The notes under the pieces: model-generated
Seen by the model: only the letters and a program-made list of their open reading frames with translations
Databases searched by the model: none
What the model was told of the DNA's origin: nothing
Made by a program: the position numbers and the translations under genes
Part shown: piece by piece, positions 11,655 to 55,980 of the stretch
Layout of the letters: each line of letters opens with the position of its first letter
How positions within the stretch are numbered: position 1 is the first letter of the stretch
DNA from: Chrysophaeum taylorii
Lineage: Eukaryota; Sar; Pelagophyceae; Pelagomonadales; Pelagomonadaceae
Direction of reading: 5' to 3'
DNA: 64,000 nt
Assembly: GCA_029834535.1 (NCBI GenBank)
Contig: JAQMWT010000436.1
Span: 1-64,000 of the forward strand

Positions 11655-11745
11655 CGAAGCACAATCCTCCAGTCACAAGACACGGAGGTGCCCTGCCCTA
11701 CGACGCTTGCAATTACCAGAAATAAAAGGCAATTCGAGGTCCTCT

Positions 11746-12666: not shown

Positions 12667-12704
12667 GGGTAGGCCCTAAAAATTTTGGCGTACGCTCTTC
12701 AACC

Positions 12705-12964: not shown

Positions 12965-13010
12965 CCTTTCCTCACATATGAGTATTTAATTATTTTTATA
13001 GAAACGCACG

Positions 13011-13480: not shown

Positions 13481-13481
13481 A

Positions 13482-14544
13482 TCCTAACTACTAATCGACA
13501 GATGTTTGTCTGTCTGTCTGTCTGTTTGTTTGTTTGTCCCTCGATTTAGGGTAAGGATCAGGTAGGCGCGAGAGTAAGGATCAGGTAGGCGCGAGAGCCA
13601 GACAGTGATCCTCCAAGCCGTCTACGGCGACCTCGCAGACTGTTTCCACGACCCGCGGCGGCTCTTTCAGCGCGCCATTCTCACGCCCCGTCGAAACGAT
13701 GTTGTCGATGCTGACAACGCCGCGCGCATGACCGCGGCCTTTTTTTCCCGGAGACGAGGCGTCGGAGTTCTTTTCGGCCGACTAGGTTGGATCGGAAGAC
13801 GATGCCTCGCTCTTTACAGTAGAGTTTTCAACTCCCTGACAACCAACGGCATGCTGACTTTGATCGCGAGCTTAAAGTCTTCGCAACCTCGACCCGTCGC
13901 ACGGCCACTGCAACGGTACCAGATACATGATCGATCGTGTCGTTGTCACCGAGGCTCCTCCAACCTGTATCCCTTAAGGCCCGCCTACGCCAAACGATCA
14001 ACAAGTGCCAGGGCCAGACGCCCCGCGAGGTCGGCGTCCTCTTTCCCAAGCCCGTCTTCTGCCACGTCCAGCTCGACGTGGCTCTCTGTCGATCGGCATC
14101 CCCGAGGATATACTCATCTGGGTCGACGACTCCACCCTACCCCACACGTGCTGCGCAATACCGATAAGCCCCATCCCGGCGTCTACACGCGCACTGTAGG
14201 TGAACTTACTGGGACCACGTGAACTTACTGGGGTTTGAGATTGGGACTAGGTGAACTGAGTGACCAGGTGAAACTGGGACCAGGTGAACATACTGGGGTT
14301 TTAGAGCAAAGGGTTTTTAGAGTAAACTCACTCAAAGGTTGGCGGCGCGTGCGGATCGAAGCAGCTTAGATTGGCGGAGGCGAGAGCGACGAGCTCAAAG
14401 GAGTTGGTGTGAGCTAGGTGAACTTACTGACCAGGTGAACTTATATGAAACTTACTGGGACCAGGTGAACTTACTGGGGTTAGAGATTGGGACCAGGTGA
14501 ACTTACTGGGGTTAGAGATAGGTGAACTTACTGGCCTGCACTTG
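13482..14544 (+). mobile_element. Helitron copy H2
   Basis: It starts TCCTAACTACTAATCGACAG after an A and ends GGCCTGCACTTG. The TTTG/TCTG tract, the CCCTCGATTTAGGGTAAGG segment, helicase remains (about 13605-14202: YGDLADCFHDPRRLFQRAILTPRR, TINK-QGQT, and the end PLPGVYTR-like) and the GGTGAACTTACTGG minisatellite are all in the family order. It is directly followed, head to tail, by copy H3. The doubled 5' end at 13461-13500 looks like a slipped or repeated initiation. Confidence 0.75.
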
Positions 14545-15692
14545 TGTTTGTCTGTTTGTCTCTTTGTTTGTTTGTTTGTCCCTCGATTTAGGGTAAGGAT
14601 CAGGTAGGCGCCCCTCGTCTACAGGCCCGTGATTCCGGACTGGCTCCTGTCGGTCCGGCCTGGCTCCCATGGTCGGGAGAGGTCTGAAGTTAGTTAGTTA
14701 GTTAGTTGTCCCTCGATTTAGGGTAAGGATCAGGTAGGCGCGAGAGTAAGGATCAGGTAGGCGCGCGAGCCAGACAGTGATCCTCCAAGCCGTCTACGGC
14801 GACCTCGCAGACTATTTCCACGACCCGCGACGGCTCTTTCAGCGCGCCATTCTCACGCCCCGTCGAAACGATGTTGCCGATGCTGACAACGCGCGCATGA
14901 CCGCGGCCCTTTTTTCCCGGAGACGAGGCGTCGGAGTTCTTTTCGGCTGACTAGGCTGGGTCGGAAGACGACGCCTCGCTCTTTATAGTCGAGTTTTCGA
15001 CTCCCTGACAACCAACGGCATGCTGACTTTGATCGCGAGCTTAAAGTCTTCGCAACCTCGACCCGTCGCACGGCCACTGCAACGGTACCAGATACATGAT
15101 CGATCGTATCGTTGTCACCGAGGCTCCTCCAACCAGTATCCCTTAAGCTCCGCTGACGCCAAACGATCAACAAGAGCCAGGGGCAGACGCCCCGCAAGGT
15201 CGGCGTCCTCTTGCCCAAGCCCGCCTTCTGCCACGTCCAGCTCTACGTGGCTCTCTGTCGAGTCGGCAACCCCGAGGATATCCTCTTCTTGGTCGACGAC
15301 TCCACCCTACTCCACACCTGCTGCGCAATACCGATAAGCCCCCTCCCGGCGTCTACACGCGCACTATAGGTTAACTTACTGGGACCAGGTTAACTTACTG
15401 GGGTTTGGGATTGGGACTAGGTGAACTGAGTGACCAGGTGAACTTACTCGGACCAGGTGAACTTACTGAGACCAGGTGAACTTACTGGGGGTTTTAGAGT
15501 AAACTCAAAGGTTTGCGGCGTGTGCGGATCAAAGCACCTTAGATTGGCGGAGGCGAGAGCGACGAGCTCGAAGGAGTGGGTGTGAGCTAGGTGAACTTAC
15601 TGACCAGGTGAACTTATATGAAACTTATTGGGATTAGGTGAACTTACTGGGGTTAAAGATTGGGACCAGGTGAACTTACTGGTCTGCACTTG
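14545..15692 (+). mobile_element. Helitron copy H3, tandem to H2
   Basis: It abuts the 3' end of H2 and lacks the first about 20 bp of the 5' end, starting in the TTTGTCTG tract. Helicase remains lie at about 14778-15360, the minisatellite follows, and the copy ends GGTCTGCACTTG. It is interrupted at 14612-14707 by a (TTAG)n-tailed insertion flanked by a duplicated 34-bp Helitron segment. The H2-H3 arrangement matches the tandem array at 42-46 kb. Confidence 0.7.
14612..14707 (+). mobile_element. (TTAG)n-tailed insertion with 34-bp target-site duplication
   Basis: The insert is 96 bp, from CCCTCGTCTACAGG to TTAGTTAGTT. It is flanked by two identical 34-bp copies of a Helitron segment, 14578-14611 and 14708-14741, each starting GTCCCTCGATTTAGGG. 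The long direct repeat, simple-repeat tail and truncated 5' end are the marks of target-primed non-LTR insertion. Confidence 0.7.
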
Positions 15693-15839
15693 TTATTACT
15701 GGTAAGAAGAAAAACCACGAGTAGGGTCCAGTGATAGGAAACATTCATGTTGTACAAGTTGTAGGAAATTCGAAGACTGACAGCGGCCGAAAACGTCGAA
15801 CGCCAGGCATTCGCGACGGTCGTGCACGGTGACGAAGAA

Positions 15840-27194: not shown

Positions 27195-29002
27195 TCTTAA
27201 CTACTAATCGACAGATGTTTGTTTGTTTGTCTGTCTGTTTGTCTGTCTTTAAATGTCGACTGCTAAGAGGGGGGGGGGTGTGTGTGGGGAGCATGAAGGA
27301 TGTGGGTGGGTTTGTGGGGTATGAGGGATGTGCCTGACGGGCGGAGATAAGTACGCGGGACCTAGTCGGGGTCATCGCCGAGGCGTGGGGCAGGCGAAGA
27401 GAGGACGGGCCCCGCCCGTAGGTCGTACGCATGCTGCCGCCGGACGTATGTGCGACGAAGGGTGACGTCCTGCTGGGATCGGGCGGCCTGGGCGGGGTTC
27501 CCGAGGCGGCGACATGGGTGAGGGCGGTGAGGGCACAGCGAGCCCGGCCTAATGCGTTGGCGATCCCCCACTCACGGTAGATGCGGCGAGTTTGGGCCGC
27601 CTTTGCCTCTGTGAAGTTGGCGCAGCCGCTTGTCACCCAGGTTCGCGCAGCGATGCGCTCTGCGCATGTTTGGGCGAGAGCGTGGCACGCCGCGCTGGCC
27701 TCACCGAAGGCACCAAAGACGAGGCCGGCGACGGTGCCGTAGCTACGTAGCCGCTGTTCGACAGGGCCCAAGAAGCCAGGCGGTGGTGCTGTACCCGGCT
27801 GGGGGATGATGGCGTCGATGCCGCGGGCGTGAGCGAGGTATTCGGAGTGGACTTGCGCTGCGCGCCGATCGACAGGCGACGGGTGGGAGGGATGGAGGGC
27901 GTGGGCGGTGTACAACGAACCCCAAGCGAGGGTTTTGATGTCGTAGAGTTGCTCCTTGTTGTCGAGCATGTTTGTCTGTCCCTCGTTAGGGTAAGGATCA
28001 GGTAGGCACGACAGTAAGGATCAGGTAGGCGCGAGAGCCAGACGGTGATCCTCCAAGCCGTCTACGGCGACCTCGCAGACTATTTCCACGACCCGCGGCG
28101 GCTCTTTCAGCGCGCCATTCTCACGCCCCGTCGAAACGATGTTGTCGATGCTGACAACGCGCGCATGACCGCGGCCTTTTTTTCCCGGAGACGAGGCGTC
28201 GGAGTTCTTTTAGGCAGACTAGGTTGGGTCGGAAGACGACGCCTCGCTCTTTACAGTCGAGTTTTCGACTCCCTGACAACCAACGGCATGCTGACTTTGA
28301 TCGCGAGCTTACGGTCTTCGCAACCTCGACCCGTCGCACGGCCACTGCAACGGTACCAGATACATGATCGATCGTGTCGTGTCGCCGAGGCTCCTCCAAC
28401 CTGTATCCCTTAAGGCCGCCGACGCCAAACGATCAACAAGAGCCAGGGCCACAAGAGCCAGGGCCAGACGCCCCGCGAGGTCGGCGTCCTCTTGCCCAAA
28501 CCCGTCTTCTGCCACGTCCAGCTCTACGTGGCTCCCTGTCGATCGGCAACCCCGAGGATATAATCATCTGGGTCGACGACTCCACCCTACCCCACACGTG
28601 CTGCGCAATACCGATAAGCCCCCTCCCGGCGTCTACAAGCGCACTATAGGTGAACTTACTGGGACCAGGTGAATTTACTGGGGTTAGAGATTGGGATTAG
28701 GTGAATATAGTGACCAGGTGAACTTACTGAGACCAGATGAACTTCCTGGGGGTTTTAGAGTAAACTCAAAGGCTAGCGGCGTGTGCGGATCAAGGCAGCT
28801 TAGATTGGCGGAGGCGAGAGCGACGAGCTCGAAGGAGTGGGTGTGAGCACGAGTGGGTTACACCGAACTTACTGGGGTTAGAGATTTGGACTAGGTGAAC
28901 TTACTGACCAGGTGAACTTATTCAAAAAACTTTCAAGAAACTTACTGGGACGAGGTGAACTTACTGGGGTTAGAGATAGGTGAACTTACTGGCCTGCACT
29001 TG
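27195..29002 (+). mobile_element. Helitron copy H4 with 0.72-kb LINE passenger
   Basis: It begins TCTTAACTACTAATCGACAG after A27194 and ends GGCCTGCACTTG before T29003, the A/T insertion pattern of Helitrons. The 5' TTTG/TCTG tract contains a LINE fragment in reverse (27247-27968). Helicase remains follow at about 28045-28650 (VYGDLADYFHDPRRLFQR, CNGTRYMIDRV-like, SQGQTPREVGVLLP, WVDDSTLPHT), then GGTGAACTTACTGG units. A partial second 5' end lies just outside at 27152-27180. H5 (33509-35312) is the same composite inverted, so the passenger was copied by Helitron transposition. DJ-1 starts 46 bp after it. Confidence 0.8.
27247..27968 (-). mobile_element. 5'-truncated LINE fragment carried by Helitron H4
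   Basis: Read on the minus strand, it starts at CTCGACAACAAGGAGC, inside the endonuclease core (DNKEQLYDIK), and runs through an unbroken C-terminal ORF of about 195 codons ending LGDDPD. The 3' UTR then ends at TTAGCAGTCGACATTTAAAG. The C-terminal frame is less decayed than in the long LINE copy. A methionine codon at the junction opens the frame, but it comes from the Helitron/LINE boundary. Confidence 0.8.
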
Positions 29003-33316: not shown

Positions 33317-33508
33317 AAAACGGTCGTCGCGAATCAATATGATAAAACTCGGGAAAGTATATCGACGCCTCCGGCTCCTCGTCGACACAGTGGGGCTTTG
33401 GTTCCTTTTTCGTGCGTTCGTTAGGAATGTGTGGCATGCGTTGTGTATTAAGATTTGATGATGACTACCACCAAGGTCGCGAGCGAGAAATGAATAAATA
33501 AAAATAAA
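33317..33508. other. MUS81 3' region, no clear gene
   Basis: A 39-codon ATG frame (33339-33458) is the only frame. It is hydrophobic and basic, but too short to call. AATAAATAAAAATAAA just before the inverted Helitron could supply a polyadenylation signal for MUS81. Confidence 0.4.
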
Positions 33509-35312
33509 CAAGTGCAGGCCAGTAAGTTCACCTAGTCCCAATCTCTAACCGCAGTAAGTTCACCCTGTTAAGTTCACCTAGTCCCAATCTCTAACCCCAG
33601 TAAATTCGGCGTAAACCCACTCGTGCTCACACCCACTCACCCCACTCTCCTGCGAGCTCGTCGCTCTCACCCCCGCCAATCTAAGGTGCTTTGATCCGCA
33701 CACGCCGCTAAGCTTTGAGTTTACTCTAAAAGCCCCAGTAAGTTCACACTTGGTCTCAGTAAGTTCACCTGGTCACTAAGTTCACCTAGTCCCAATCTCT
33801 AACCTCAGTAAGTTCACCTGGTTCCAGTAAGTTCACCTGGTCCCAGTAAGTTAACCTATAGTGCGCGTGTAGACGCCGGGAGGGGGCTTATCGGTATTGC
33901 GCAGCACGTGTGGGGTAGGGTGGAGTCGTCGACCCAGAAGAGGATATCCTCGGGGTTGCCGATCGACAGAGAGCCACGTAGAGCTGGACGTGGCAGAAGA
34001 CGGGCTTCGCCAAGAGGACGCCGACCTCGCGGGGCGTCAGGCCCTGGCTCTTGGTGATCGTTTGGCGTCGGCGGGCCTCAAGGGATACAGGTCGGAGGAG
34101 CCTCGGTGACAACGACACGATTGATCATGTATCTGGTACCGTTGCAGTGGCCGTGCGACGGGTCGAGGTTGCGAAGACTTTAAGCTCGCGATCAAAGTCA
34201 GCATGCCGTTGGTTGTCAGGGAGTCGAAAACTCGACTCTTGAGAGCGAGGCGTCGTCTTCCGACCCAACCTAGTCGGCCGAAAAGAACTCCGACGCCTCG
34301 TCTCCGGGAAAAAAAAGGCCGCGGTCATGCGCGCGTTGTCAGCATCGACAACATCGTTTCGACGGGGCGTGAGAATGGCGCGCTGAAAGAGCCGCCGCGG
34401 CTCGTGGAAATAGTCTGCGAGGTCGCCGTAGACGGCTTGGAGGATCACTGTCTGGCTCTCGCGTCTACCTGATCCTTACTGTCGCGCCTACCTGATCCTT
34501 ACCCTAACGAGGGACAGACAAACATGCTCGACAACAAGGAGCAACTCTACGACATCAAAACCCTCGCTTGGGGTTCGTTGTACACCGCCCACGCCCTCCA
34601 TCCCTCCCACCCGTCGCCTGTCGATCGGCGCGCAGCGCAAGTCCACTCCGAATACCTCGCTCACGCCCGCGGCATCGACGCCATCATCCCCCAGCCGGGT
34701 ACAGCACCACCGCCTGGCTTCTTGGGCCCTGTCGAACAGCGGCTACGTAGCTACGGCACCGTCGCCGGCCTCGTCTTCGGTGCCTTCGGTGAGGCCAGCG
34801 CGGCGTGCCACGCTCTCGCCCAAACATGCGCAGAGCGCATCGCTGCGCGAACCTGGGTGACAAGCGGCTGCGCCAACTTCACAGAGGCAAAGGCGGCCCA
34901 AACTCGCCGCATCTACCGTGAGTGGGGGATCGCCAACGCATTAGGCCGGGCTCGCTGTGCCCTCACCGCCCTCACCCATGTCGCCGCCTCGGGGAACCCC
35001 GCCCAGGCCGCCCGATCCCAGCAGGACGTCACCCTTCGTCGCACATACGTCCGGCGGCAGCATGCGTACGACCTACGGGCGGGGCCCGTCCTCTCTTCGC
35101 CTGCCCCACGCCTCGGCGATGACCCCGACTAGGTCCCGCGTACTTATCTCCGCCCGTCAGGCACATCCCTCATACCCCACAAACCCACCCACATCCTTCA
35201 TGCTCCCCACACACACCCCCCCCTCTTAGCAGTCGACATTTAAAGACAGACAAACAGACAAACAAACAAACAAACAAACAGACAAACATCTGTCGATTAG
35301 TAGTTAAGAAGA
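33509..35312 (-). mobile_element. Helitron copy H5, inverted twin of H4
   Basis: On the minus strand it starts TCTTAACTACTAATCG near 35312-35309 and ends GGCCTGCACTTG at 33509, where the next base is T on that strand. It carries the same LINE passenger with the same truncation point and the same CCCTCGTTAGGG variant as H4, so the two are products of one composite. Helicase remains lie at about 34448-33850. The pair H4/H5 brackets DJ-1, the GST-like gene and MUS81 in inverted orientation. The slight ambiguity of the 5' boundary comes from TCT repeats. Confidence 0.8.
34525..35246 (+). mobile_element. 5'-truncated LINE fragment carried by Helitron H5
   Basis: It is the same fragment as in H4: it starts TGCTCGACAACAAGGAGC, has an open ORF end through AWGSLYTAHALHPSH and LGDDPD, and a 3' UTR ending CGACATTTAAAG. 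The ORF part (to 35132) is unbroken and differs little from H4, indicating recent shared descent. Confidence 0.8.
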
Positions 35313-41937: not shown

Positions 41938-42215
41938 AACATCAAACTTACAGTGCTTTAATACATAGTATTATGTGCTCTTTACGCTGGTGTCACCATC
42001 ATGTCGAGTTGATCTTGACGTGGGGGTCACTGGTGCTTTAGTGCCTTGAGCAACAGAGTGATACGACGGTCGTTTGCGGTTGTTGCGAGATCCGGCATGA
42101 ACAAGCACCGGATTCAGAGCATTAAAAGGCGACGATAGGGCGGATATTCCACCCCGTCCACGATTCACTACTGAATATCGTCGTCGTGCGGCGTCTTTAT
42201 TGTTGACAGGGTTCA

Positions 42216-43108
42216 TCTTCCTAACTACTAATCGACAGATGTTTGTCTGTTTGTCTGTTTGTCTGTTTGTTTGTTTGTCTGTCAGTCCCTCGATTTAGGG
42301 TAAGGATCAGGTAGGCGCGAGAGTAAGGATCAGGTAGGCGCGAGAGCCAGACAGTGATCCTCCAAGCCGTCTACGGCGACCTCGCAGACTATTTCCACGA
42401 CCCGCGGCGGCTCTTTCAGCGCGCCATTCTCACGCCCCGTCGAAACGATGTTGTCGATGCTGACAACGCGCGCGTGACGCGGCCTTTTTTTCCCGGAGAC
42501 GAGGCGTCGGAGTTCTTTTCGGCCGACTAGGTTGGGTCGGAAGACGACGCCTCGCTCTTTACAGTCGAGTTTTCAACTCCCTGACAGCCAACGGCATGCT
42601 GACTTTAATCGCGAGCTTAAAGTCTTCGCAACCTCGACCCGTCGCACGGCCACTGCAACGGTACCAGATACGTGATTGATCGTGTCGTGTCACCGAGGCT
42701 CCTCCAACCTGTATCCCTCAAGGCCCGCCTACGCCAAACGATCAACAAGAGCCAGGACCAGACGCCCCGCGAGGTCCGCGTCCTCTTGCCCACAAGCCCG
42801 TCTTCTGTGTGGTGAATATAGTGACCAGGTGAACTTACTGAGACCAGGTGAGCTTACTGGGAGTTTTAGAGTAAAATGAAAGGTTAGCGGCGTGTGCGGA
42901 TCGAAGCAGCTTAGATTGGCTGAGGCGACAGCGACGAGCTCGAAGGAGTGGTGTGAGCACGAGTGGGTTTACGCCGAACTTACTGGGGTTGGAGATTTGG
43001 ACTAGGTGAACTTACTGACCAGGTGAACTTACTGGGACCAGGTGAACTTACTGGGGTTAGAGATTGGGACTAGGTGAACTTACTGGAGAACTTACTGGCC
43101 TGCACTTG
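42216..43108 (+). mobile_element. Helitron array unit H6
   Basis: First unit of a four-copy head-to-tail array. It follows A42215 and starts TCTTCCTAACTACTAATCG. Helicase remains (42353-42812) stop early: the YVAL/WVDD part is missing, and the unit jumps to the minisatellite. It ends GGCCTGCACTTG directly against H7. Confidence 0.75.
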
Positions 43109-44172
43109 TCCTAACTACTAATCGACAGATGTTTGTCTGTCTGTTTGTCTGTTTGTTTGTTTGTTTGTCCCTCGATTTAGGGTAAGGATCAGGTAGGCGC
43201 GAGAGTAAGGATCAGGTAGGCGCGAGAGCCAGACAGTGATCCTCCAAGCCGTCTACGGCGACCTCGCAGACTATTTCCACGACCCGCGGCGGCTCTTTCA
43301 GCGCGCCATTCTCACGCCCCGTCGAAACGATGTTGTCGATGCTGACAACGCGCGCATGACCGCGGCCTTTTTTTTCCCGGAGACGAGGCGTCGGAGTTCT
43401 TTTCGGCCGACTAGGTTGGGTCGGAAGACGACGCCTCGCTCTTTACAGTCGAGTTTTCAACTCCCTGACAACCAACGGCATGCTGACTTTGATCGCGAGC
43501 TTAAAGTCTTCGCAACCTCGACCCGTCGCACGGCCACTGCAACGGTACCAGATACATGATCGATCGTGTCGTTGTCACCGAGGCTCCTCCAACCTGTATC
43601 CCTTAAGGCCCGCCGACGCCAAACGATCAACAAGAGCCAGGGCCAGACGCCCCGCGAGGTCGGCGTCCTCTTGCCCAAGCCCGTCTTCTGTCACGTCCAG
43701 CTCTACGTGGCTCTCTGTCGATCGGCAACCCCGAGGATATGCTCTTCTGAGTCGACGACTCCACCCTACCCCACACGTGCTGCGCAATACCGATAAGCCC
43801 CCTCCCGGCGTCTACACGCGCACTGTAGGTGAACTTACTGGGACCAGGTGAACTTACTGAGGTTTGAGATTGGGACTAGGTGAACTGAGTGACCAGGTGA
43901 ACTTACTGGGACCAGGTGCAAGTTACTGGGGCTTTTAGAATAAACTCAAAGCTTAGCGGCGTGTGCGGATCAAAGCAGCTTAGATTGGCGGGGGTGAGAG
44001 CGACGACCTCGAAGGAGAGTGGGGTGAGTGGATGTGAGCACGAGTGGGCTTACACCGAACTTACTGGGGTTAGAGATTGGGACTAGGTGAACTTACTGGG
44101 GCCAGGTGAACTTACTGGGGTTAGAGATTGGGACTAGGTGAACTTACTGGCGAACTTACTGGCCTGCACTTG
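43109..44172 (+). mobile_element. Helitron array unit H7
   Basis: It starts TCCTAACTACTAATCGACAG at the exact end of H6. It has the fullest helicase remnant in the array (43236-43831, with ILTPRRNDVVDADNAR, TINKSQGQTPREVGVLLPKPVF, YVALCRSATP) and the GGTGAACTTACTGG minisatellite, and ends GCACTTG at 44172. Confidence 0.8.
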
Positions 44173-45021
44173 TCCTAACTACTAATCGACAGATGTTTGT
44201 CTGTCTGTTTGTCTGTCTGTTTGTCCCTCGATTTAGGGTAAGGATCAGGTAGGCGCGAGAGCCAGACAGTGATCCTCCAAGCCGTCTACGGCGACCTCGC
44301 AGACTATTTCCACGACCCGCGGCGGCTCTTTCAGCGCGCCATTCTCACGCCCCGTCGAAACGATGTTGTCGATGCTGACAACGCGCGCATGACCGCGGCC
44401 TTTTTTTCCCGGAGACGAGGCGTCGGAGTTCTTTTCGGCTGACTAGGCTGGGTCGGAAGACGACGCCTCGCTCTTTACAGTAGAGTTTTCAACTCCCTGA
44501 CAACCAACGGGATGCTGACTTTGAGCGCGAGCTTAAGGTCTTCGAAACCTCGACCCGTCGCACGGCCACTGCGACGGTACCCACTGCGACGGTACCAGAT
44601 ACATGATCGATCGTGTCGTTGTCACCGAGGCTCCTCCAAACTGTATCCCGTAAGGCCCGCCGACGCCAAACGATCACCAAGAGCCAGGGCCAGACGCCCC
44701 GCGAGGTCGGCGTCCTCTTGGCGAAGCCCGTCTTCTGCCACGTCCAGCTCTACGTGGCTCTCTGTCGATCGGCAACCCCGAGGAGATACACTCATCTGGG
44801 TCGACGACTCCACCCTACCCCACACGTGCTGCGCAATACCGATAAGCCCCCTCCCGGCGTCTACACGCGCACTGTAGGTGAACTTACTGGGACCAGGTGA
44901 ACTTACTGGGGTTGGAGATTGGGACTAGGTGAGCTGAGTGACCAGGTGAAACTGGGACCAGACCAGGTGAACTTACTAGGGTTAGAGATTGGGACTAGGT
45001 GAACTTACTGGCCTGCACTTG
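44173..45021 (+). mobile_element. Helitron array unit H8
   Basis: It starts TCCTAACTACTAATCG against H7 and ends GCACTTG at 45021. Helicase remains are at 44271-44877. The 3' minisatellite is shortened compared with H7 and H9. Confidence 0.8.
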
Positions 45022-45042
45022 CCCTAACTACTAATCGACAGA

Positions 45043-45074
<32 letters not shown>

Positions 45075-46024
45075 CCTCGATTTAGGGTAAGGATCAGGTA
45101 GGCGCGAGAGAGCCAGACAGTGATCCTCCAAGCCGTCTACGGCGACCTCGCAGACTATTTCCACGAGCCGCGGCGGCTCTTTCAGCGCGCCATTCTCACG
45201 CCCCGTCGAAACGATGTTGTCGATGCTGACAACGCGCGCATGACCGCGGCCTTTTTTTCCCGGAGACGAGGCGTCGGAGTTCTTTTCGGCTGACTAGGCT
45301 GGGTCGGAAGACGACGCCTCGCTCTTTACAGTAGAGTTTTCAACTCCCTGACAACCAACGGCATGCTGACTTTGATCGCGAGCTTAATGTCTTCGCAACC
45401 TCGACCCGTCGCACGGCCACTGCATACCAGATACATGATCGATCGTGTCGTTGTCACCGAGGCTCCTCCAACCTGTATCCCTTAAGGCCCGCCGACGCCA
45501 AACGATCACCAAGAGCCAGGGCCAGACGCCCCGCGAGGTCGGCGTCCTCTTTCCCAAGCCCGTCTTCTGCCACGTCCAGCTCTACGTGGCTCTCTGTCGA
45601 TCGGCAACCCCGAGGATATACTCATCTGGGTCGACGACTCCACCCTACCCCACACGTGCTGCGCAATACCGATAAGCCCCCTCCCGGCGTCTACACGCGC
45701 ACTGTAGGTGAACTTACTGGGACCAGGTGAACTTACTGGGGTTGGAGATTGGGACTAGGTGAGCTGAGTGACCAGGTGAAACTGGGACCAGGTGAACATA
45801 CTGGGGCTTTTAGAGTAAAGGGTTTATAGAGTAAACTCAAAGGTTGGCGGCGCGTGCGGATCAAAGCAGCTTAGATTGGCGGAGGCGAGAGCGACGAGCT
45901 CAAAGGAGTTGGTGTGAGCTAGGTGAACTTACTGACCAGGTGAACTTATATGAAACTTACTGGGACCAGGTGAACTTACTGGGGTTAGAGATTGGGACTA
46001 GGTGAACTTACTGGCCTGCACTTG
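45022..46024 (+). mobile_element. Helitron array unit H9
   Basis: It starts CCCTAACTACTAATCG against H8 and ends CCTGCACTTG at 46024, followed by T46025 and the resumed methyltransferase-like frame. Helicase remains are at 45121-45709. H8 and H9 share variants (GGCTGACTAGGCTGGG) not in H7, so they are the closest pair. Confidence 0.8.
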
Positions 46025-47870
46025 TAGACATCATAAAAGATTGTGCCAAAGACAAGGTATCTGTGCTGCACGTGGTGGAGGCTTGGTCAACGGTCATGAA
46101 ATTGGATACATAGGATTTCTTCGTCACGGCAGCAGTATGTTGGAAGGTAGGGTCCAACATAAGGGATTTAATATCGGCGACGATGAGCGAAAGGTGCTTG
46201 TACAGAGTGCTGTACGTACCGGCAGGCAGAGCATTGCTGAGCATGTCACAGCAAAGGTCATGGCGTAGAGACAAGAGGAAAGATTCCTGTTGTTTGGTGT
46301 GGTTGTTAGCACGAATCAACTCCGGTCGAGTGGGGTAGCGTAATTTCCCGTTGCGAGGGTCGAGTAAAATCATATTGGCATACCCTCGGATGGTTGGCAA
46401 TGGAGCAAGCATTGAGTGGATTTTAGAGCCGAGCTTGCGGTCACTTCCACGAAGGTACCCTATATAGCGACTATGAGATAGGTGATGATCTTCCAGAGCA
46501 AAAAGAGAATCCTTGTAATCGAAAGAGTTGTCGGTGGCCTTGTAGGTAAGGCAGCCAGGCATCACGAGAGCGCATCTGGACACGAGGTTTTGTATGGCGG
46601 TGCCATAGGTGGTAGCGGAGCCAACTTGGGGAAGGGCTTGGACTATCCACAAGTAACCTATAAACGGCTCCAGATATATGGACCTGTCCCGGTCGCGGGG
46701 GATGTCGGAAGCAGTGAACGTATACGTGCTCCCAAAGGCGTTGATGGGGGTCTTTTGGTTGGTGGTGGCGTTCTCTATGGTGAGGTTGCCGTCGGAATGG
46801 TGGCCACCAGTTAAGAAGTAGGAGTTGTGTGATGTTGATGAGGTTGTAAGTAATAACCTGTGTGACGGTTGGTTAGTTTCGAAAACGGTTATGTAATAGG
46901 ACACAGGAGTGGGTGAGTTAGTAAGTAAGCTTGCGAACACGTTATAGAGGATTGTAAAAATCTTGACGTGTATAGGATGTGTTGCATTGGGTAATGGCTC
47001 CATAGAGGAGCGTTTAAAGCACAACTGATGGTAAGTACACTCGGGTTGAACAGAGTGAGTACGTTGCTCGTGAGCCTGTTGTGAGTGAAGGCGAAGTAGT
47101 AACATATTGAGGGATTCAAGGTCAGCCATAGTAAGCTGAGCAGAACCTGTGCGAGAGTAAGGTGCAAACGTTTTAGGAACGGGTATATATGGAGGATCGG
47201 GGAACACCCGGATCCAGTCTTTGGTTAGGTGGTTAGGTAGCCAAAGGCGCTTGGGAATAGCTTGTAGATCATCCACGATCTTTAGGAAGGGGCGTGGATG
47301 GAGGATGGGCCACGATGATAGTTTAATTGGTCCAGTAGAATATCTGCGGGCGACGCATATCCACCTTTCTCTAGATTGGTAGTCGCCACATAGGTAGGTC
47401 GGGAACCTATCAACAACATCGACACAGTAATCAAGGGTAGTATAGATAAGGTTGGCCACTGTGATGTGGTCTTGATGACAGTACTTATGCGGAGGCGTCA
47501 TCTCAGCCAGTAGTACCAAGGGCTGGAGTAGCTTGATGACAGACAGCATGCTGTCGAAAAGAGAATCGTCCAGCAGACTGTGTAAGTCTTCTGACTTTTG
47601 TTGTTTTAGTAAATTCCTGTTTGTGCAGGGAGGAGTGATCTCAATTATATCACAATAGAATGTGCGCCTTTCCTCGGGTGAGATTAGGTGGAGATGGTTA
47701 ATAAAGGCGGGGAGAGATTCAAATAATAGTACAGTAGGACAACGGTGGCGTAACATACGAACAAGCGTATCATCAGACTCAACAACAACTTTTACATTGA
47801 TATTTAAGCCGAAGTTATTAGTGGCTTGAGACAGGAACGCCGGAGTTGACAAACCAGAACAAAGTAACAT
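46025..47870 (-). pseudogene. Cytosine-C5 DNA methyltransferase-like protein, interrupted by the Helitron array
   Basis: Visible DNMT boxes in order: motif I-like MLLCSGLSTPAFLSQ at the start, motif IV-like IIEITPPCTNRN with the PPC catalytic cysteine near residue 80, motif VI-like LVLLAEM near 118, motif VIII-like QSRERWICVARR near 165, a long variable region where a target-recognition domain would sit, motif IX-like LRYPTRPELIRA near 515 and motif X-like DMLSNALPAGTYSTLYKHL near 548. The complete order and spacing fit a C5 methyltransferase. Such genes are known as cargo of LTR retrotransposons in a few lineages (reported for dinoflagellates and a charophyte alga). The frame is cut near its 3' end by the Helitron insertion. 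A role in methylating DNA of the element or host is inference. Confidence 0.7.
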
Positions 47871-47927
47871 GACAGAGGGTTTGCGGAGATTGGACTCTTG
47901 TGAGAGAAAAACTGGTCGTGCGAGTAG

Positions 47928-50693
47928 TCAACTCAATGGTTGCGTATTTTGCTGAACAAATTTGTTCTGTTTCCGAAGATTGAGAACCAAAGGGCGAATC
48001 CACGGCCGATCTGGTAAAACTCGTTGGAGTAGGTAGTTGTAGTATGCCAGTAGATCCCTGTTTTCATGGTATCGCTTGAGGGGAAATGCAAGGGAGCGAA
48101 GTTCCAGCCGCTTGTCGCGCGCGATGTTGTAAGTGATACAAGGGAGAGCGGGTAAATTCGCTGCGACATAGTGTATGGGTATACGTACATCTTTGTCTAT
48201 GCGGCTCGTGACAACGCTGAGCTTTTGCTCAGCTCGATCGTCGAACTCGGTGGTAAGATTGGTCTGGTTCCATACGAGCATGCTCAGGATAGCGAGATGT
48301 CGGTCATGCACTGGTTGAAGACATAAAGCGAAGTCGATCTTAACGTAACCAATTTGTGGATGATCTGGTAGGGGAATAACGATGTTGCGTGTTAACATCA
48401 TGTGTGATGCCCGTTGTTGTCCTGTTGCCGTCTGAATAACAATCGGGGCGTACGTAGAGTCCAATGGTATTATATGATTGGGTATAGCGAAATCGTAGGT
48501 GGACATCAATGAGATGGTAGCACAAGAGTCAAAATATAGGAAAGAGCAATGTGGAGGGACACTGTTTACCTTCATGTAGTTGGTGAGGAAGGCGTTTTCC
48601 GAATGTGGGCAAGTAGTGGAGAGACTAGCGGTGAAGAAATTCTTCAGCAATAACAGATTCGTTGGAATAATGATCGGTTGAACAGGTGGTGATGGCTCGT
48701 CAGCCTCATCAGCCATGCCGTGCTTTTCGTCAAATGACGATAGGGAGGTGTGGTCGGCATCCCTTTTGGGTTCGGCTTGTGGTGGTAGGTTGAGGGCAGA
48801 TTGGACCTGTGAAGATAGCGAGGACAATAATGCTGGTGGTAAAGCCGAAATGGCGGAAGCGGTAAAGAGGTTAGACACAGTATTGGAAGGATTACCCTGT
48901 GTGTTTGTAGTAGGAGGAGTTGTTGTTGGGGTGGGAGCAGTAACGACAGTATGGTGTTGTGGCTCCACGTAGTTTAACGACTTTTCGGTCGAGGGTAGAT
49001 GAACGTCTACATCATAAATGATGTCTTCTGCAAACATGAGCTGTTCGTTTAGACGAAGTAAACTACTGTTGTCCTCAGTAGATGTTGTTGACAGGATATC
49101 GGCTGATTGTAGCAAGGTCTCAAATAACTTGTTGATATTCTGTTGTAGCTGAGCCGTGGTATCATTATCTGTCACATGCTTCGTGAGTTCGCTACACTGC
49201 TCTCGCAGGCTATTTAAGGTGTGGTTAGTTCGATCTAATAGTTTCATGTTAGACCGAGAGGACCTGTCAAATGTGCGGGGGTAAATTGGACGGTCATGGG
49301 ACTGTCCGGCAGTTTTCTTGGTGACGTAAGAATCACCAGGACGATAATACGATAAATCGCTGCGGGAGAAAGGCTGGCGAGCATCATTAGAGTTACGCAA
49401 GCGTCTAGCGGAAGATGTACCTGGTTGGGACGAAGTGATGAAGGCGAGTGTGTTAGCAGTTTGAGTCAGACTTTTGTCCGATGAGTCCAAAATATGTGTA
49501 AGGAGTAACTTTGGCTTTGGTTGAGATGATAATCCTTCGACATAGGGTTGCCAAGAAACAGGGCGTTTTAAGCGTCTTTTGTTCGACCCGTTTGATACGA
49601 CATTGTAAAGGTCTAATGCGTATTCTAAAATGTAGCTTGGGTTGGTAGGGTGACACAATCGTTCAGCTTCTGGTACAGGTCGAGATGAAGATCGGGTTTC
49701 GTACATATAACACCAATCTACCCAACCACGATCATAACGGTTGTTGCTGGTATTATCGGCATAGTGCCGATGTATCTCTTCATAGATTTTTCTGCAAAGA
49801 GTGCCAAAGTCGAATTGAAGGTCAGTCTCTTCCTGGTTAAGTTGGTAAGAGATTTGCCTAAATGCTAGGACAGCTTCGATAAATACATGGACATACCAGT
49901 TAGGATTATAAACAACAGAGTTAAATTGCTGTTTCAAATAAGACACATCAGTAGTCGTAACAGACTCGTAGTGACTCAAGGCGATGAGCATAATGGCTCG
50001 AGCCTTGTTGGGTAAATAGCTTTTGTTGTACATTTCGTTGATGGCGGGCCAGGCCGCAAGTGCCGGTTTTCCAACACTTTCAAGGTTGAAGTAAGTATGT
50101 AAAAAGGTAGCGTGCGTGTTCTGGTAAGTGTGCCAGTCAGCTGCAGTTAATGAAAGCATGGTAACCGGGGCACGAACACGAGTGTCGAAAGCTAGTGCCT
50201 TCGGGTGCGCGCGATTTAAGATTCGTTCCTCTTCTAAGAAACGAGCGGTAATTTCAGGACGTAATGCCTTGACTTCATAGTCGTAACAGACGGTAGTTAG
50301 CTGAGCTACTTCTGCATCAGGTAAGTGGGGAAAAGCTTCGTTGGTGAAATGCCATTCCTGATACTCAGGGGGTAACTCATCGACAGTTAAACGGAGATCA
50401 GCAGCCCTATCGGTCTTCCATTCCAGGAAAACGCGATCGAGAATTTGATTCCGGAGGATTTCGTAGTCCTTGCATGACCGAGTATATGCTTCATACGAGT
50501 CGTACTCGAGGAAAGCATCGGCATGACTGGACCGTAGTAATTGCTTGATATGCTTGATTTGCAAGGATACCTTGCGGTTCTGAAGCTGGAAGCGGTTGCC
50601 CTCATTGAGGAACTCAACTACAGGAGCTTCGAGCTTCAATATATCCGCACCTGTGATCGCCTTAGGTGCGGCTCGTGCTGCGTGTTCTGCCAT
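47928..50693 (-). CDS. Gag- and aspartic-protease-like protein of the LTR element
   Basis: A long open frame of about 920 codons from the ATG at 50693. The first about 450 residues are helical and capsid-like, with no match I can name. A serine/proline/threonine-rich linker follows. Near residues 740-850 a segment with FLYFDSCATISLM and a later strand-rich stretch (IVIPLPDHPQIGYVKIDFALCLQPVHDRHLAILSMLVW) resembles a retroviral-type aspartic protease, with the D-S-x-A-T pattern of the catalytic loop. Gag followed by protease is the normal order in Copia elements. The methyltransferase-like frame begins about 60 bp further along the same strand. Confidence 0.55.
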   Translation of the reverse strand: MAEHAARAAPKAITGADILKLEAPVVEFLNEGNRFQLQNRKVSLQIKHIKQLLRSSHADAFLEYDSYEAYTRSCKDYEILRNQILDRVFLEWKTDRAADLRLTVDELPPEYQEWHFTNEAFPHLPDAEVAQLTTVCYDYEVKALRPEITARFLEEERILNRAHPKALAFDTRVRAPVTMLSLTAADWHTYQNTHATFLHTYFNLESVGKPALAAWPAINEMYNKSYLPNKARAIMLIALSHYESVTTTDVSYLKQQFNSVVYNPNWYVHVFIEAVLAFRQISYQLNQEETDLQFDFGTLCRKIYEEIHRHYADNTSNNRYDRGWVDWCYMYETRSSSRPVPEAERLCHPTNPSYILEYALDLYNVVSNGSNKRRLKRPVSWQPYVEGLSSQPKPKLLLTHILDSSDKSLTQTANTLAFITSSQPGTSSARRLRNSNDARQPFSRSDLSYYRPGDSYVTKKTAGQSHDRPIYPRTFDRSSRSNMKLLDRTNHTLNSLREQCSELTKHVTDNDTTAQLQQNINKLFETLLQSADILSTTSTEDNSSLLRLNEQLMFAEDIIYDVDVHLPSTEKSLNYVEPQHHTVVTAPTPTTTPPTTNTQGNPSNTVSNLFTASAISALPPALLSSLSSQVQSALNLPPQAEPKRDADHTSLSSFDEKHGMADEADEPSPPVQPIIIPTNLLLLKNFFTASLSTTCPHSENAFLTNYMKVNSVPPHCSFLYFDSCATISLMSTYDFAIPNHIIPLDSTYAPIVIQTATGQQRASHMMLTRNIVIPLPDHPQIGYVKIDFALCLQPVHDRHLAILSMLVWNQTNLTTEFDDRAEQKLSVVTSRIDKDVRIPIHYVAANLPALPCITYNIARDKRLELRSLAFPLKRYHENRDLLAYYNYLLQRVLPDRPWIRPLVLNLRKQNKFVQQNTQPLS

Positions 50694-50859
50694 AGCAGTT
50701 GACGGGGAACCTGTGGGTTCAGTCACGCAGTTGACACTGTCTAGACATTCTAAGGGGGTCTGTCTATCGGTGTCTATGTACACTCATCGATTTTTCGATG
50801 GAAAATGTGTCTATATGACGACTGTGCAAGCTGTGAGTCCAGAGTAGTGTCGCTAAGCG

Positions 50860-51531
50860 TAGTCACTCAGGCAGCTGGTTAGTCTTGGTGCTCTCAAGGA
50901 GCTTGTTAGGTGCATTGCCATGGAATGTACGAGTGGACGTACCCAAAATATTCCATAACATGTGTGCAAGAGTACAGGTTAGCCAATTACACTAACATCA
51001 ACATTGACATGACAACACGATGCTATGAACAGGTGCACACAAGGTTACACGATCACGTGTGCTAAAAAAATATTATATACAGCCCAATGGTAATGGCGAT
51101 GTATTGACAAGCGTGTCACATGTCGAGGCTAGGTCGGCGCGGTAACGACCCAATACCCATAGGCTACGTGCATGTTTTTGACACATGGTTTCTCAGGGAC
51201 CCGCCTGGGCCCATAACCTGCAGAGCATTTAGCAAGCAGTGGTAAGTCACCTGGGAAACCATCCCGTCTCATCGTGAACGTCTGGCAGGTTATTTCGGGG
51301 AATGAAAGGTTATGTTCCCTATATCCTCAGAACACGACAGGCGGCATCTAGAACTACACGAGAAAGGTTAAGTGTATAGTGCCACATACCTCGGGACGCG
51401 CTAGACCATGATGATGAGCGTAGGCACAAATCAGAGGACTATTAGATTGTGTAGAAAGGAAGAAGAAGGGTAAGGAAGAGATCACGTTCTCAACGGACGG
51501 ATAAGGGTAAGAGGCAGCAGATTTCTCTGCA
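50860..51531 (-). repeat. 5' LTR of the methyltransferase-bearing element
   Basis: Read on the minus strand it begins TGCAGAGAAATCTGCTGCC and is homologous to 55361-55667 for about 310 bp. A TATA-like TATATAATATTTTTTT lies at about 51079-51062 and could be its promoter. The inner boundary near 50860 is uncertain. Confidence 0.6.
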
Positions 51532-51937
51532 GATCTATTGTACATATTTGTTGTGTGACGGTGCGTGTCCACCAGTTAAGTTGGTTCGTGACTGAGTTGG
51601 GTCGGTCACTGGTCACGTGCACTCGCATAACTAATAAAACTAAATTTTTTCTACACAAGCCGCGGAAACTTGTGCGGGTTTTTCCTTGCATTCCCAACAC
51701 AAGACGGACTGCTAGAGAATTAATCCATTCTTTAGTCTCAAATCATCATGTTTAAATAGCATGTTGCTTTGTTTGGTCTTGTAAATAAGCCCACGCTTAA
51801 AAAAGCGTACTGTACATATGACCCGCACTCAAGAAGCCCTTCATTCTTATGTGTCAAATCTGTTTATCAATCCTGTTACGAATGGAATGAGGCGTTAGAC
51901 TAGCGATAAGAGAAAGACGTACGGATACTGGATACGT
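51532..51937. other. AT-rich spacer between opposed LTR elements
   Basis: No gene is seen. A hairpin-like CGCTTAAAAAAGCG lies near 51794-51807. The DNA is AT-rich like the elements on either side and may be remains of either. Confidence 0.4.
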
Positions 51938-52078
51938 GGTGCAGGGGTAAGTGTCATAGCTTCCTCACACAGGTGCTGGAAAAGAAAGAGAAGGAAAAAG
52001 GGGTAAGTGAGGTCCTCACACAGGTGCTGGAAAAAGAAAGAAAAAGGAAAAAAAAAGGGGTAAGTGAGACGCTCACAG
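51938..52078 (-). repeat. Inverted terminal fragment of Copia family A
   Basis: GGTGCAGGGGTAAGTGTCAT and the following GCTTCCTCACACAGGTGCTGG units are the reverse complement of the family A terminal block and its upstream pyrimidine tract (1030-1190). The fragment sits directly at the truncated 5' end of the Copia copy at 52 kb. Confidence 0.65.
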
Positions 52079-53503
52079 AGGAATCACCATCCCTTTGGAA
52101 CAAAGAGATAGACGGCTTCTTCCGTAGCCTTGGTTACAAACGCCTGCATTCGGACTCTTGCCTATATGCTCGAGTATCCGCACATGCTAAGTTCGTCGTA
52201 TGCAGTCTGTCTGTAGACGACATTGTTATTGTGTCCAATGACGACCCTCTTCGTACTGAATTACAGGATGCCCTCCACAAACGGTATGCTGTAGAGCAGT
52301 TTGAACCTGTCCATACCCTCCTAGGCATGCGTGTGTGTCGCACATCTGACGGCTCCATTTCACTGGATGTGCAAGCCAAGCTGGATGAACTCTTCGCTGA
52401 TCACCCAGTCTTGCAGCAACTGACCCCGCTTAAATATCCTATGTCATCGTCCTTCAAGTATAAAGATGGCACTCCCAGCACTGAAACAGAGTTGTACATC
52501 AACTCGCACTTTGCCACCCTCCTCGGCAAGCTAGTGTTCATGCAAGTTGCCTGCAGACCTGACTTCTCGCAAGCCTTGGGCAGATGTTCGCGTGGTATGC
52601 ATGCACCCACACATGTTCACGTCCAAATGCTAGAGCATTTACTTCGTTACCTCAAGAAGCCGGAAAACCGCTCACTTCGCCTCTGGTTTCACCCTAAAGG
52701 TAATGCCATTGAAGCTCACCTTCGCACTGTCTCCGCTAATCGAATTGATCTATCCACTGTGGTCGACTACCAACCACAGGATGTATCTACTGGACAGTTT
52801 GACCCCTTAGTTGCCATGGTTGACGCTGACAATGCCCCTTCCTTAGCACAGGAAGATAGGAAATCTACCACCGGGTTTGTCTTCTATCTTTTCAACTGCC
52901 TTATTGGTTGGAAAAGCAAACTTCAACCGATTGTCTCCTGCTCAACTCACGAAGCTGAGTTGATTGCCCTCAGTATTTGTGCTGATGAAGCTGTTTGGCT
53001 ACGCAAGCTGCTGTTGGAACTCTCCTTTGTTGTCAACCCCACCTTCTACGTCAATAATGCTAATGGTGAGAACACCGCTGACCCTGTTGACTTTGATGAC
53101 AATGACAACCCAATTGCTGAAGATATGCGCTTCATCAGAAGCCTACCTCTTTTGTCTGACAATGCTGCCGCTGTTCACACCTCTAATAACCCAGATGGGT
53201 CCTCTCGATCCAAGGCACTGTCGACTAGATGGTTTAAGATTCGTGAGTACATATCGCTTCAGAAAATACGAGTCCATCATGTTCCCGGCAAGCTGAACGT
53301 GGCGGATGGCTTTACAAAACCACTTGCGGCTGAGTTCTCCACTTTTCGTTCTCTACTCGGTATGCATCATGCCTCTCACGACAATCCTTTACAGGATTGA
53401 AGATACCTAACTCTAGTGACCGCAACGTCGTTAAACTATCCCTGGCCTTACCTTCTCTTGCCACAATTTTTTTTGTACACGGGCAAGTGTTGTTCATGTC
53501 TTC

Positions 53504-54334
53504 TTGACACTCCCGTGGCCGTGGCATCTCTCCCAAGTTGTTTCAAAAGTGACAACCCATAACTACTGTCACTCCTACTACCTCCCAGGCTGCTACTGTC
53601 TCACCGACACCAGCGATGGCCTCAACATGGATTTTACCCTGATTGAACGAGGATTCTCTCTTTTTGAGAGCTTCCGTACTCCTGCTACGCCCTTTCTCTC
53701 TTCTGTTATGCGAGCGGAAATCTCTACGGCACTCAACCCGATATATGAATCTGCTGACTCTTTACTGTTTGTGGAACTTACGAGCTTCATATTTATGCGC
53801 CTACCCATTACTACATTTTGGGAAGCTGCTCCTGCTATTACTTCTATTGGCTGCTACAGAGGCCCCAAATGTGAACGTTTCATCCTGTCACCCTATTGTA
53901 CGCAGTGTCTCAACGACTTAGGACAGCCTACATTTCTTGCTTCTACCACATATAATTCGAAGTCACAAGCACCTAGTGAACTCCCCACTGAAGTGCTGAG
54001 TCACCTTAACACAGATGACCACAAGATGAATGGTCATATTCCCATCTCAACTATCACTACTAACATTTGTTGTGCTTGTCACAACACCGATCAGGCGCCC
54101 ATACAATCTAACGTATGTGCACGTAATGCTACTTCCTTCCAACCATCGTGCAGCGGGTGCTCAGCTGGTCATATACGCGCAACCATCATACGCACGTATC
54201 ATTTGCCAAAGGAGCTACATATGCTCTTGACCAGAAATCTAACGCAACAGTCGTCACTTGCTCACTTAGTCTTATCAGTAACCGATGCAGCCACAGACTC
54301 CACTTATTACTCAGATGCACCTGGAGCATCTTAA
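53504..54334 (+). other. Accessory zinc-ribbon-like frame of Copia element C
   Basis: It contains CTQCLN and CCACHN pairs matching CTKCLN and CVICN of the frame at 41020-41937. A third Cys-rich stretch (CSGCSAGH) is present. It lies about 100 bp after the RNase H end, where some Copia and Gypsy lineages carry extra genes. Its role is unknown. Confidence 0.45.
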
Positions 54335-55360
54335 CCTTCTTGTAACGCTCGAGCAAACACAAGCTCGTAAAACTCAGGCTATATGTTCAAGCCACCAAAT
54401 ACCACCATGTGATTCATACTGTTATCTGATCGCGTGTACAACATCTTAACAACTACGCATCATCCTCTGATGATACAGAACCGCTATTACTCCGGGATGT
54501 AATGTTCGGCCACACTTATGTTCAGGCAGAACATTAAGGCTTCCTGCACCCCTTTCTTTTTTTTAACGTTGACCGAAACGTCGTTAAACTACTCACACTC
54601 CACGCTAGACGCTACTCTGGAGATATCTTCGCCACCGTTACCTACGCCTTCTGCTTCGCTTGTTGATTCCGACTTCTTGTGCCAACAAGTCGACCAACTC
54701 CAGGAAACACCTCCCTGGAGAACCGGCTCTTCCCTCCTACAGCCAACACCCACGTGTTACTTATACACTGTACAAGATCACAGAGCTGTTGTCTCGCTTA
54801 ATACTCACCGCTCATTATCAACATGCTACCAACTACTCCTCCCCGGACGATCACCTCCTTCATCTACGTGACAAGTTGCTCTCATGCTTCAGAGCATTCC
54901 GTCCGCTCTCATGTGAATCTGAAGACTCTTCTATCTTCGTTCTTCGTTCGCCAAGTCCAACCTTTTTTTGGGGAACCAACTGGACACCTTTCAACTAGAT
55001 TCTCTATCGCCATCCATACTGAATGCTCTACTTGCACTCACCCTTCTCTTGGCACCACATCGTTCAGCTATTGGTGTTCACCACCTTACAGCAGAAGCTG
55101 ACGATGATTAATAATCCTAACTCACTGTCTGTTGTATCTGCGTTTCTTAATGTTCTGTTCAAAAGGGTCAAATCGACTCTCAGCTCCACCAAGTCCAAGT
55201 CCAAGTCCTAAGACCCTTCTACACTCTTGATGCTTCGTATGTGACCTCTGTGACCATCAAGACTGTATTCCTTCCTTTTTTTTTTCTTTTTCTCTTCATC
55301 ATCATCTTTCTCAAGAGATGCTCTACAGTCGCACCTTGCGCTTAAGACATCTCGAGGGGG

Positions 55361-55980
55361 TGCAGAGAAATCTGCTGCCTCTTACCCTTATCCGTCCGTT
55401 GAGAACGTGATCTCTTCCTTACCCTTCTTCTTCCTTTCTACACAATCTAATAGTCCTCTGATTTGTGCCTACGCTCATCATCATGGTCTAGCGCGTCCCG
55501 AGGTATGTAGCGCTATACACTTAACCTTTCTCGTGTAGTTCTAGATGCCGCCTGTCGTGTTCTGAGGATCATAACATTTCATTCCCCGAAATAACCTGCC
55601 AGACGTTCACGATGAGACGGGATGGTTTCCCAGGTGACTTACCACTGCTTGCTAAATGCTCTGCAAGATCACCGCCAAACACATTGTCGCGTTGTACTCG
55701 TGATCAGGCGCAAATTGATCACTCCATTTATACGCACAACACAGTTGGGCTGACACACCTACGCATCTGGGCCCATAACCTGGAGAGATTTGACCCTCTC
55801 CGGGTACATGGTAGAGACTGCGTGCAGTCTTAGGCGTGTAAGGACCATTCCGCTTGTCACATGCTACTACACAAGGTAGGGATTTAGGCCCTAACTCCTT
55901 AAGGACATTAGGTCCCATAGAAGCGTTTACACTGACAACGAGGAACGAAGCCTCTGTTAATTAAACAGAAAACTCCATAC
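55361..55980 (+). repeat. 3' LTR of Copia element C
   Basis: It begins TGCAGAGAAATCTGCTGCC right after a polypurine tract. The first about 310 bp match the inverted LTR at 51531-51222, after which the two diverge at GCTCTGCA. The outer end is not certain; element-like sequence continues to about 55980. Confidence 0.65.

Follow-up and report, generated by a model that had tools for sequence, protein, structure and literature searches.

Retrotransposons that carry their own cytosine DNA methyltransferase (DNMT) are already known, and the 2018 report by de Mendoza et al. describes such enzymes in DIRS elements and long interspersed nuclear elements (LINEs) of Symbiodinium and in a Gypsy element of Klebsormidium (PMC5890265). 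Here we describe a further case from the pelagophyte Chrysophaeum taylorii, found in a 64,000-nucleotide stretch of contig JAQMWT010000436.1 (positions 1 to 64,000; hereafter the window), where the minus strand between 51531 and 46025 holds part of a long terminal repeat (LTR) retroelement. The element belongs to a Ty1/Copia family, here called family 1, whose polyprotein includes a divergent C5 cytosine methyltransferase (MTase) after the protease and before the integrase. A Ty1/Copia carrier with the MTase placed after a UGA codon is a new variant among these systems.

KnitGypsy-Dnmt3 of Klebsormidium nitens resembles family 1 in being an LTR element with a C5 MTase in its Pol polyprotein and with several copies, and purifying selection is reported for its MTase as well, with a Ka/Ks < 0.2 (PMC5890265). 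It differs in its Gypsy domains, its DIRS-style repeat arrangement and its clear Dnmt3 sequence (PMC5890265), whereas family 1 is Ty1/Copia, has the MTase directly after a UGA between protease and integrase, and encodes in the window a protein (P0001) that has no PF00145 match. Membership of family 1 in Dnmt3 was considered and dropped, and we assign no clade. SymbioDIRS-Dnmt3 and SymbioLINE-Dnmt are similar to what we see here in that several retrotransposon classes of one genome carry a C5 MTase, and the SymbioLINE-Dnmt enzymes are also an orphan branch, but the carriers are DIRS elements (with a tyrosine recombinase) and LINEs; Copia elements of Symbiodinium are without any DNMT domain according to the same source (PMC5890265). 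The Dam-type MTases of DIRS elements are likewise DNA methyltransferases in a retrotransposon, yet they act on adenine and have no structural relationship to the cytosine DNMTs (PMC5890265). A 2025 survey (PMC12344493) names "LTR Copia and DIRS" with DNMT3 in one sentence, and the section concerned gives no element structure; since it cites the 2018 paper, whose LTR element is a Gypsy, the Copia wording may be a slip. A literature search covering few subscription papers, judged by titles and the opening of abstracts and, for PMC9998398, PMC6338049 and PMC12210899, by passages of text, brought up no other description of a DNMT-bearing Copia element.

We searched the genome of the same organism (70.8 Mb, 697 contigs) and scored at least 71 copies of family 1 among 1604 first-look candidates, with 76 matched stretches at 77–100% identity. 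Seven 10-kb copy regions were retrieved for reading, and the motif and boundary counts given below use the first 30 copies. The copy L031 reads LTR, Gag and protease, in-frame UGA, and then MTase, integrase and reverse transcriptase (RT), with a second open reading frame (ORF2) that stays open for 1691 codons. Following the MTase, ORF2 matches rve (E 0.0076, residues 784–866) and SH3 (E 5.6e-4, residues 968–1007), both below the cut-offs, and downstream of this integrase-like part RVT_2 (E 7.7e-42, residues 1431–1651), while RNase H was recognised by eye beyond a stop. The order rve, SH3, RVT_2, RNase H is that of Copia elements, and the LTRs of the family have TG...CA ends with a primer binding site, as expected of Ty1/Copia. 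We do not call L031 intact, because ORF1 and the part beyond the RT both carry lesions and its 3′ LTR falls outside the region read. Scoring 150 of 1670 candidate RVT_2 matches, we found a family 1 MTase 2–6.5 kb upstream on the same strand for at least 45, downstream for none and on the opposite strand for one. Since both sets of matches are incomplete and a second Copia family (family 2, described below) was left out of the neighbour count, 45 is a lower bound, and the 105 RVT_2 matches with no family 1 match upstream are to be read with the same limits. The initial annotation of the window, made from its letters alone, had proposed that an LTR retroelement carries a relative of the C5 MTases; the fusion to an integrase-like part and a Copia RT in L031, together with purifying selection on the domain, bears this out, and the frame recurs in other copies, with the same upstream boundary in 25 of the 27 where that boundary was located. 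Chance, contamination and a single degenerate copy were also considered as explanations, and were rejected in view of the number of copies, the purifying selection and the profile link described below.

The window copy and its surroundings are laid out as follows:

51219–51531, minus strand: 5′ LTR (TGCAGA...TCTGCA), with an inverted match at 55361–55665 (96.5%) and 94% against the 5′ LTR of L031
51205–51218, minus strand: primer binding site of 14 nt, GGTTATGGGCCCAG, directly 3′ of the LTR; its complement is in the anticodon arm of tRNA-Met
47928–50783, minus strand: ORF1, a Gag-like region and a protease-like motif FDSCAT with the D at residue 752, motif and Gag label both assigned by eye
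47928–47930, minus strand: in-frame UGA between ORF1 and ORF2 in the context UGA CUA
46161–47870, minus strand: predicted C5 MTase domain, covering roughly the first 570 residues, from motifs, homologues and selection
46008–46025, minus strand: truncation junction between the element's end and the start of a tandem-repeat array; homology to L031 extends as far as 46025 by blastn and 46014 by tblastn
52079–53400, plus strand: inverted 3′ half of the same family with C-terminal RT and RNase H, 97% against L031; PF07727 E 2.5e-10, RNase H by eye
55361–55665, plus strand: 3′ LTR of the inverted half, by LTR match, with GAGGGGG (polypurine-like) just before it

ORF1 (50783–47928, 951 aa) lies upstream of the MTase frame (47870–46008, 620 aa, P0001) in the same reading frame, with one TGA and 19 codons between them, which agrees with the earlier description of an MTase frame downstream of a Gag/protease-like frame. 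No significant Pfam family was found for ORF1. The window copy is broken, with two halves of one family lying head to head: the minus-strand part (51531–46025) is 94% identical to L031, and the plus-strand part (52079–53515, the RT–RNase H half) is 97% identical. As the plus-strand fragment matches the RT half of L031 so closely, this is one rearranged family and not two elements sharing an LTR; the initial annotation was right about the shared LTR, and it is the separate Copia element that falls away. Compared with L031, the window copy is missing the integrase and the front of the RT. On the left it passes into a tandem array whose spacings are about 0.83–1.05 kb, and since the MTase frame enters this array at about 46014–46025, the C-terminal stop of the frame is a truncation artefact. 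Recurrent units ~1 kb long, containing simple repeats of CTGT/TTGT and repeats of GAACTTACTG, are seen in the window at 42211–46040, ~10600–15700, 27970–29000 and 33500–34520, and units of this array also occur upstream of the element part in copy L037. In the inverted half, a 276-aa frame (53504–54334, plus strand) with no significant Pfam match follows the RNase H and precedes the 3′ LTR, and is possibly an extra 3′ ORF. An Rfam scan of the window gave no match at gathering scores. The complement of GGTTATGGGCCCAG is found in two tRNA-Met genes of the same genome (L052 and L053), and the pattern also occurs at L050 and L051, neither of which was called as a tRNA. We take the primer to be a tRNA of the initiator type, used as a half-tRNA in the manner of Drosophila copia.

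Of the 30 copies, 27 have an ORF1/ORF2 boundary that could be placed, and in 25 of these it carries a TGA, in the contexts TGACTA (16 copies), TGAATG (5), TGAATA (2), TGACCA (1) and TGACTG (1), with TAA or TAG at none of the 27. Copy L008 has no stop at the boundary and L030 is rearranged upstream of it. Within family 1 we distinguish subfamily 1a, which includes the window copy, from subfamily 1b (L054 and L056; 47% identical to P0001), and L054 has a one-codon gap between two open frames at the matching place and thus a stop there, although its letters were not read. UGA CUA is a known readthrough context, and the retention of UGA in 25 of 27 located copies makes stop readthrough likely. Two observations count against readthrough. 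No stable RNA structure beyond that of shuffled sequences follows the UGA (z +0.57) in the window copy, the one copy folded. Translation could also restart at an ATG 57 nt beyond the UGA, but would then begin inside the presumed first strand of the MTase fold.

Purifying selection acts on the MTase domain. Over the 105 pairs formed by 15 copies, with five stop codons passed over, summed nonsynonymous divided by summed synonymous divergence (dN/dS) comes to 0.173 over the whole domain, 0.093 for residues 1–180, 0.223 for 181–500, 0.108 for 501–570 and 0.259 for 571–615. In the four copies with a comparable RT, the ratio is 0.171 for the RT and 0.085 for MTase residues 1–180. The domain as a whole is constrained about like the RT and its motif-bearing part more so. 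Weighing on the other side, the whole MTase (0.176, three copies without indels) shows no extra constraint over the RT (0.171), and the values of individual pairs spread between 0.11 and 0.47 over the whole domain and between 0.03 and 0.80 for residues 1–180. Selection on the MTase in many copies suggests that the element uses the enzyme to spread.

The domain has the ordered motifs by which C5 MTases are defined, namely I, IV (PC), VI (E), VIII (QxRxR), IX and X, just as had been read from the minus-strand frame beforehand:

47832–47870, minus strand: motif I (MLLCSGLSTPAFL), pattern in 26 of 30 copies and in the alignments
47625–47633, minus strand: motif IV Pro-Pro-Cys with the predicted catalytic Cys82; Cys in 30 of 30 copies (PPC in 29, PSC in 1), aligned with LPC of family 2
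47499–47507, minus strand: motif VI Ala-Glu-Met; Glu in 30 of 30 copies, aligned with VEN of family 2
47364–47378, minus strand: motif VIII QSRER, the pattern kept in 29 of 30 copies, with QSRGR in 3 of the 29; in L004 a stop interrupts it
46317–46343, minus strand: motif IX-like LRYPTRPEL; core RYP[TI]RPEL in 29 of 30 copies, aligned with IRHYSTREL (L054) and IRYATLNEI (L048)
46224–46241, minus strand: motif X-like LSNALP in 28 of 30 copies, aligned with IANAIP (L054) and LANAVP (L048)

A motif II pattern is present in 29 of the 30 copies, some of which are truncated. None of 20,000 shuffles of P0001 matched a loose pattern of motifs I, IV, VI and VIII; this pattern was composed after the protein had been read, so the shuffle test is a sanity check only. 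About 320 aa separate motifs VIII and IX, and this large region is presumably the target-recognition domain.

We consider it highly probable that the domain is a C5 MTase, given the motif order, a PF00145 match in a homologue and a shuffle-tested link to family 2. The homologue, P0002, is a 392-aa MMETSP transcript product with 42% identity to P0001 (E 9e-70), and PF00145 is its only Pfam match at E ≤ 10 (E 4.4e-4). At the level of the family, the profile evidence is split: P0002 scores 20.2 bits, below the PF00145 cut-off of 22, and it is family 2 that lies above the cut-off, with a TIGR00675 match as well (E 3.4e-8, below the cut-off of that model). Profile alignment with hhalign connects families 1 and 2 at E 6e-4 (A2), 8.5e-4 (A8) and 3.2e-4 (the shuffle-tested run), and none of 150 column shuffles did as well (maximum score 30.0 against 40.4), nor did a reversed profile (24.1). 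The alignment is in register at motifs II, IV, VI and VIII, and in it Glu31, Pro-Cys82, Glu123 and the arginines of motif VIII fall on the matching motifs. With the mixed profile A4, C5 MTases fill the first 18 of 43 rows against the PDB (best 1.6e-6, M.HhaI 2.7e-5), but A4 includes family 2 and is therefore not independent proof for family 1. We also made two AlphaFold models (615 aa and 249 aa), each from a two-sequence alignment of P0001 and P0002, and the order of strands and helices in the 249-aa model, itself of low confidence, is compatible with a class I Rossmann-like MTase fold.

Several results pull the other way on the identity of the domain. P0001 itself has no Pfam family at E ≤ 1, so the PF00145 match that the initial annotation led one to expect did not appear; it has no NCBIfam match at E ≤ 1 either, and only an unrelated chance match among PDB sequences (E 0.67). 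In the PDB, profiles built from family 1 alone brought up no methyltransferase. The E-values from hhalign are modest, with HH-suite probabilities of 28%, 24% and 39%, and the AlphaFold models have low mean pLDDT values of 34.3 (615 aa) and 41.7 (249 aa). Foldseek on the 249-aa model, for the best 50 of 1887 rows, placed generic Rossmann folds first and Dnmt3a-Dnmt3L at rank 37, an unspecific list that counts neither for nor against an MTase. In addition, motif VI, canonically Glu-Asn-Val, has Glu-Met in place of Glu-Asn. In subfamily 1b, PF00145 reaches E 0.081 in L054 and has no match in L056. The absence of direct matches fits a divergent, little-described branch of the C5 MTases. Protein searches with P0001 found no homologue besides P0002, those with residues 1–620 of the 1691-aa frame of L031 found none, the search with alignment A6 found none among the 8000 candidates with most common words, and scans of IMG/VR found no relative. 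P0002 is 39–44% identical to the at least 105 genome matches scored, of 1056 candidates, which makes a different species its probable source; the lineage of Copia elements with this MTase would then be older than this genome and transcribed elsewhere, and may be wider.

Family 1 is not the only MTase carrier in this genome. A PF00145 profile search gave 124 matches, two of which look like host genes: L038 (a 360-aa frame), which we take to be Dnmt2-like, and L039 (a 2086-aa frame), which we take to be Dnmt5-like. The frame adjoining L038 matches light-harvesting proteins, the best of them by name from red-plastid algae, and the dinoflagellate spliced leader, searched with up to 2 mismatches, gave no match. 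A further 55 matches lie within the profile range of family 2, and nine of these were read. In L048 (G000:C96:62000-68999), a single frame of 1952 codons holds a protease-like motif, PF00145 (1.1e-7), a weak rve and RVT_2 (1.6e-38), and we read family 2 from these domain matches as a second Copia family, with its C5 MTase between the protease-like motif and the integrase in one frame. Of the remaining 67 matches, 64 are confined to profile positions 1–77, a good number of them scoring close to the cut-off or under it, and the one that was read, L049 (family 3; G000:C235:20000-23999), has the start of a C5 MTase (PF00145 4.4e-5) upstream of RVT_1 (1.2e-13) in an element that appears Gypsy-like by eye. 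The L049 protein has 62 genome matches from 58 scored candidates, and the matches fall into sets at 83–100% and 69–71% identity with one short stretch at 55%. With family 3 entered as one sequence, hhalign gave E 0.09 against family 1 and 0.33 against family 2, neither significant, and its closest partner was the Dnmt2-like L038 (E 0.0057). This makes at least two captures of an MTase by retroelements likely but not proven. A fuller scenario, in which one ancestral MTase entered the Copia families 1 and 2 and another entered the Gypsy-like family 3, each apparently directly after the protease, is tentative and on balance we would not expect it to hold.

Taken as a whole, our best explanation is a Copia element whose MTase is made by readthrough as part of Gag-Pol, packaged and used in methylation of complementary DNA (cDNA), to which we give a probability of about 0.7. 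A fraction of ribosomes would pass the UGA and make a protein running from Gag through protease, MTase, integrase and RT to RNase H, and the MTase would then enter the virus-like particle at Pol stoichiometry. We infer that, once in the particle, it would most likely methylate the new double-stranded cDNA prior to integration, so that the copy passes as host-like DNA or has its chromatin state set. That the element's own cDNA is the target is the likeliest role, and a part of this explanation to which we would give about even odds; methylation of cDNA in the particle was proposed for SymbioDIRS-Dnmt3 by de Mendoza et al. (PMC5890265).

The mutation evidence for methylation is mixed. Among 15 copies, CpG transitions are not in excess (0.049 in CG, 0.034 in CHG and 0.053 in CHH contexts), nor are they at third positions, which speaks against DNA methylation of the element. 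CpG observed/expected is 0.93 for 46000–51531 and 0.76 for 51532–55665, compared with 1.01–1.30 in the other window stretches measured, and TpG or CpA reach up to 1.33 alongside. GC content differs too, and a depletion this mild is not decisive and leaves our probabilities as they were.

The alternative that survives best is that the substrate is RNA, either the element's RNA or the half-tRNA-Met primer, and we see a small but real chance of this. Dnmt2-type C5 MTases modify tRNA anticodon arms, and the primer site pairs with just such an arm of the host tRNA-Met. The missing CpG transition excess would also follow, and of the two host MTases compared, family 1 is nearer to the Dnmt2-like L038 (hhalign E 0.043, weak and not significant) than to the Dnmt5-like L039 (0.2). 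However, the spacing between motifs VIII and IX is shorter in Dnmt2 than the roughly 320 aa seen here, which look more like a DNA target-recognition domain. RNA methylation was raised for the LINE-type enzymes by de Mendoza et al. (PMC5890265).

Somewhat less probable, and in our view unlikely, is a catalytically dead MTase-like domain that is kept for nucleic acid binding or assembly, as Dnmt3L is for Dnmt3. The departure of motif VI from Glu-Asn-Val and the lack of a direct profile match for P0001 would suit such a domain, but the predicted catalytic Cys and Glu are kept in all 30 copies read, the motif VIII pattern is kept in 29 of them, and the motif-bearing parts are the most constrained. 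We regard as unlikely to the same degree that the MTase serves silencing, with the element marking its own new copies and so limiting harm to the host, a role put forward in general terms in the 2018 report (PMC5890265). The DNMT-like genes L038 and L039 could in principle maintain such marks, making the upkeep of cytosine methylation plausible, and CpG is lower in both element halves than in the other stretches measured; yet this difference is mild, GC content differs too, and no transition excess is seen at all sites or at third positions. Lastly, a chance reading of motifs in a fast-evolving retroelement spacer, which the absence of any profile or fold match for P0001 might favour, is very improbable against the PF00145 match of P0002, the shuffle-tested link to a family above the Pfam cut-off and the focus of constraint on the motifs.

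Returning to the packaged, cDNA-directed MTase, retroelements usually suffer from host cytosine methylation, and here the element carries the enzyme. If the two entries were true, both lineages would seem to share, in this host, a strong need for methylation of nucleic acid within the particle, for example as an answer to a host defence directed at unmethylated cDNA, and in family 1 the dose would be set by UGA readthrough. These elements also affect how methylation genes are counted, as counts of PF00145 in genomes miss some elements (the window protein) and include others (families 2 and 3). The 2018 report did not settle what a retrotransposon gains from its own MTase (PMC5890265), and C. 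taylorii, an alga whose genome is small yet holds numerous Copia copies under constraint, would offer a tractable setting in which to ask.

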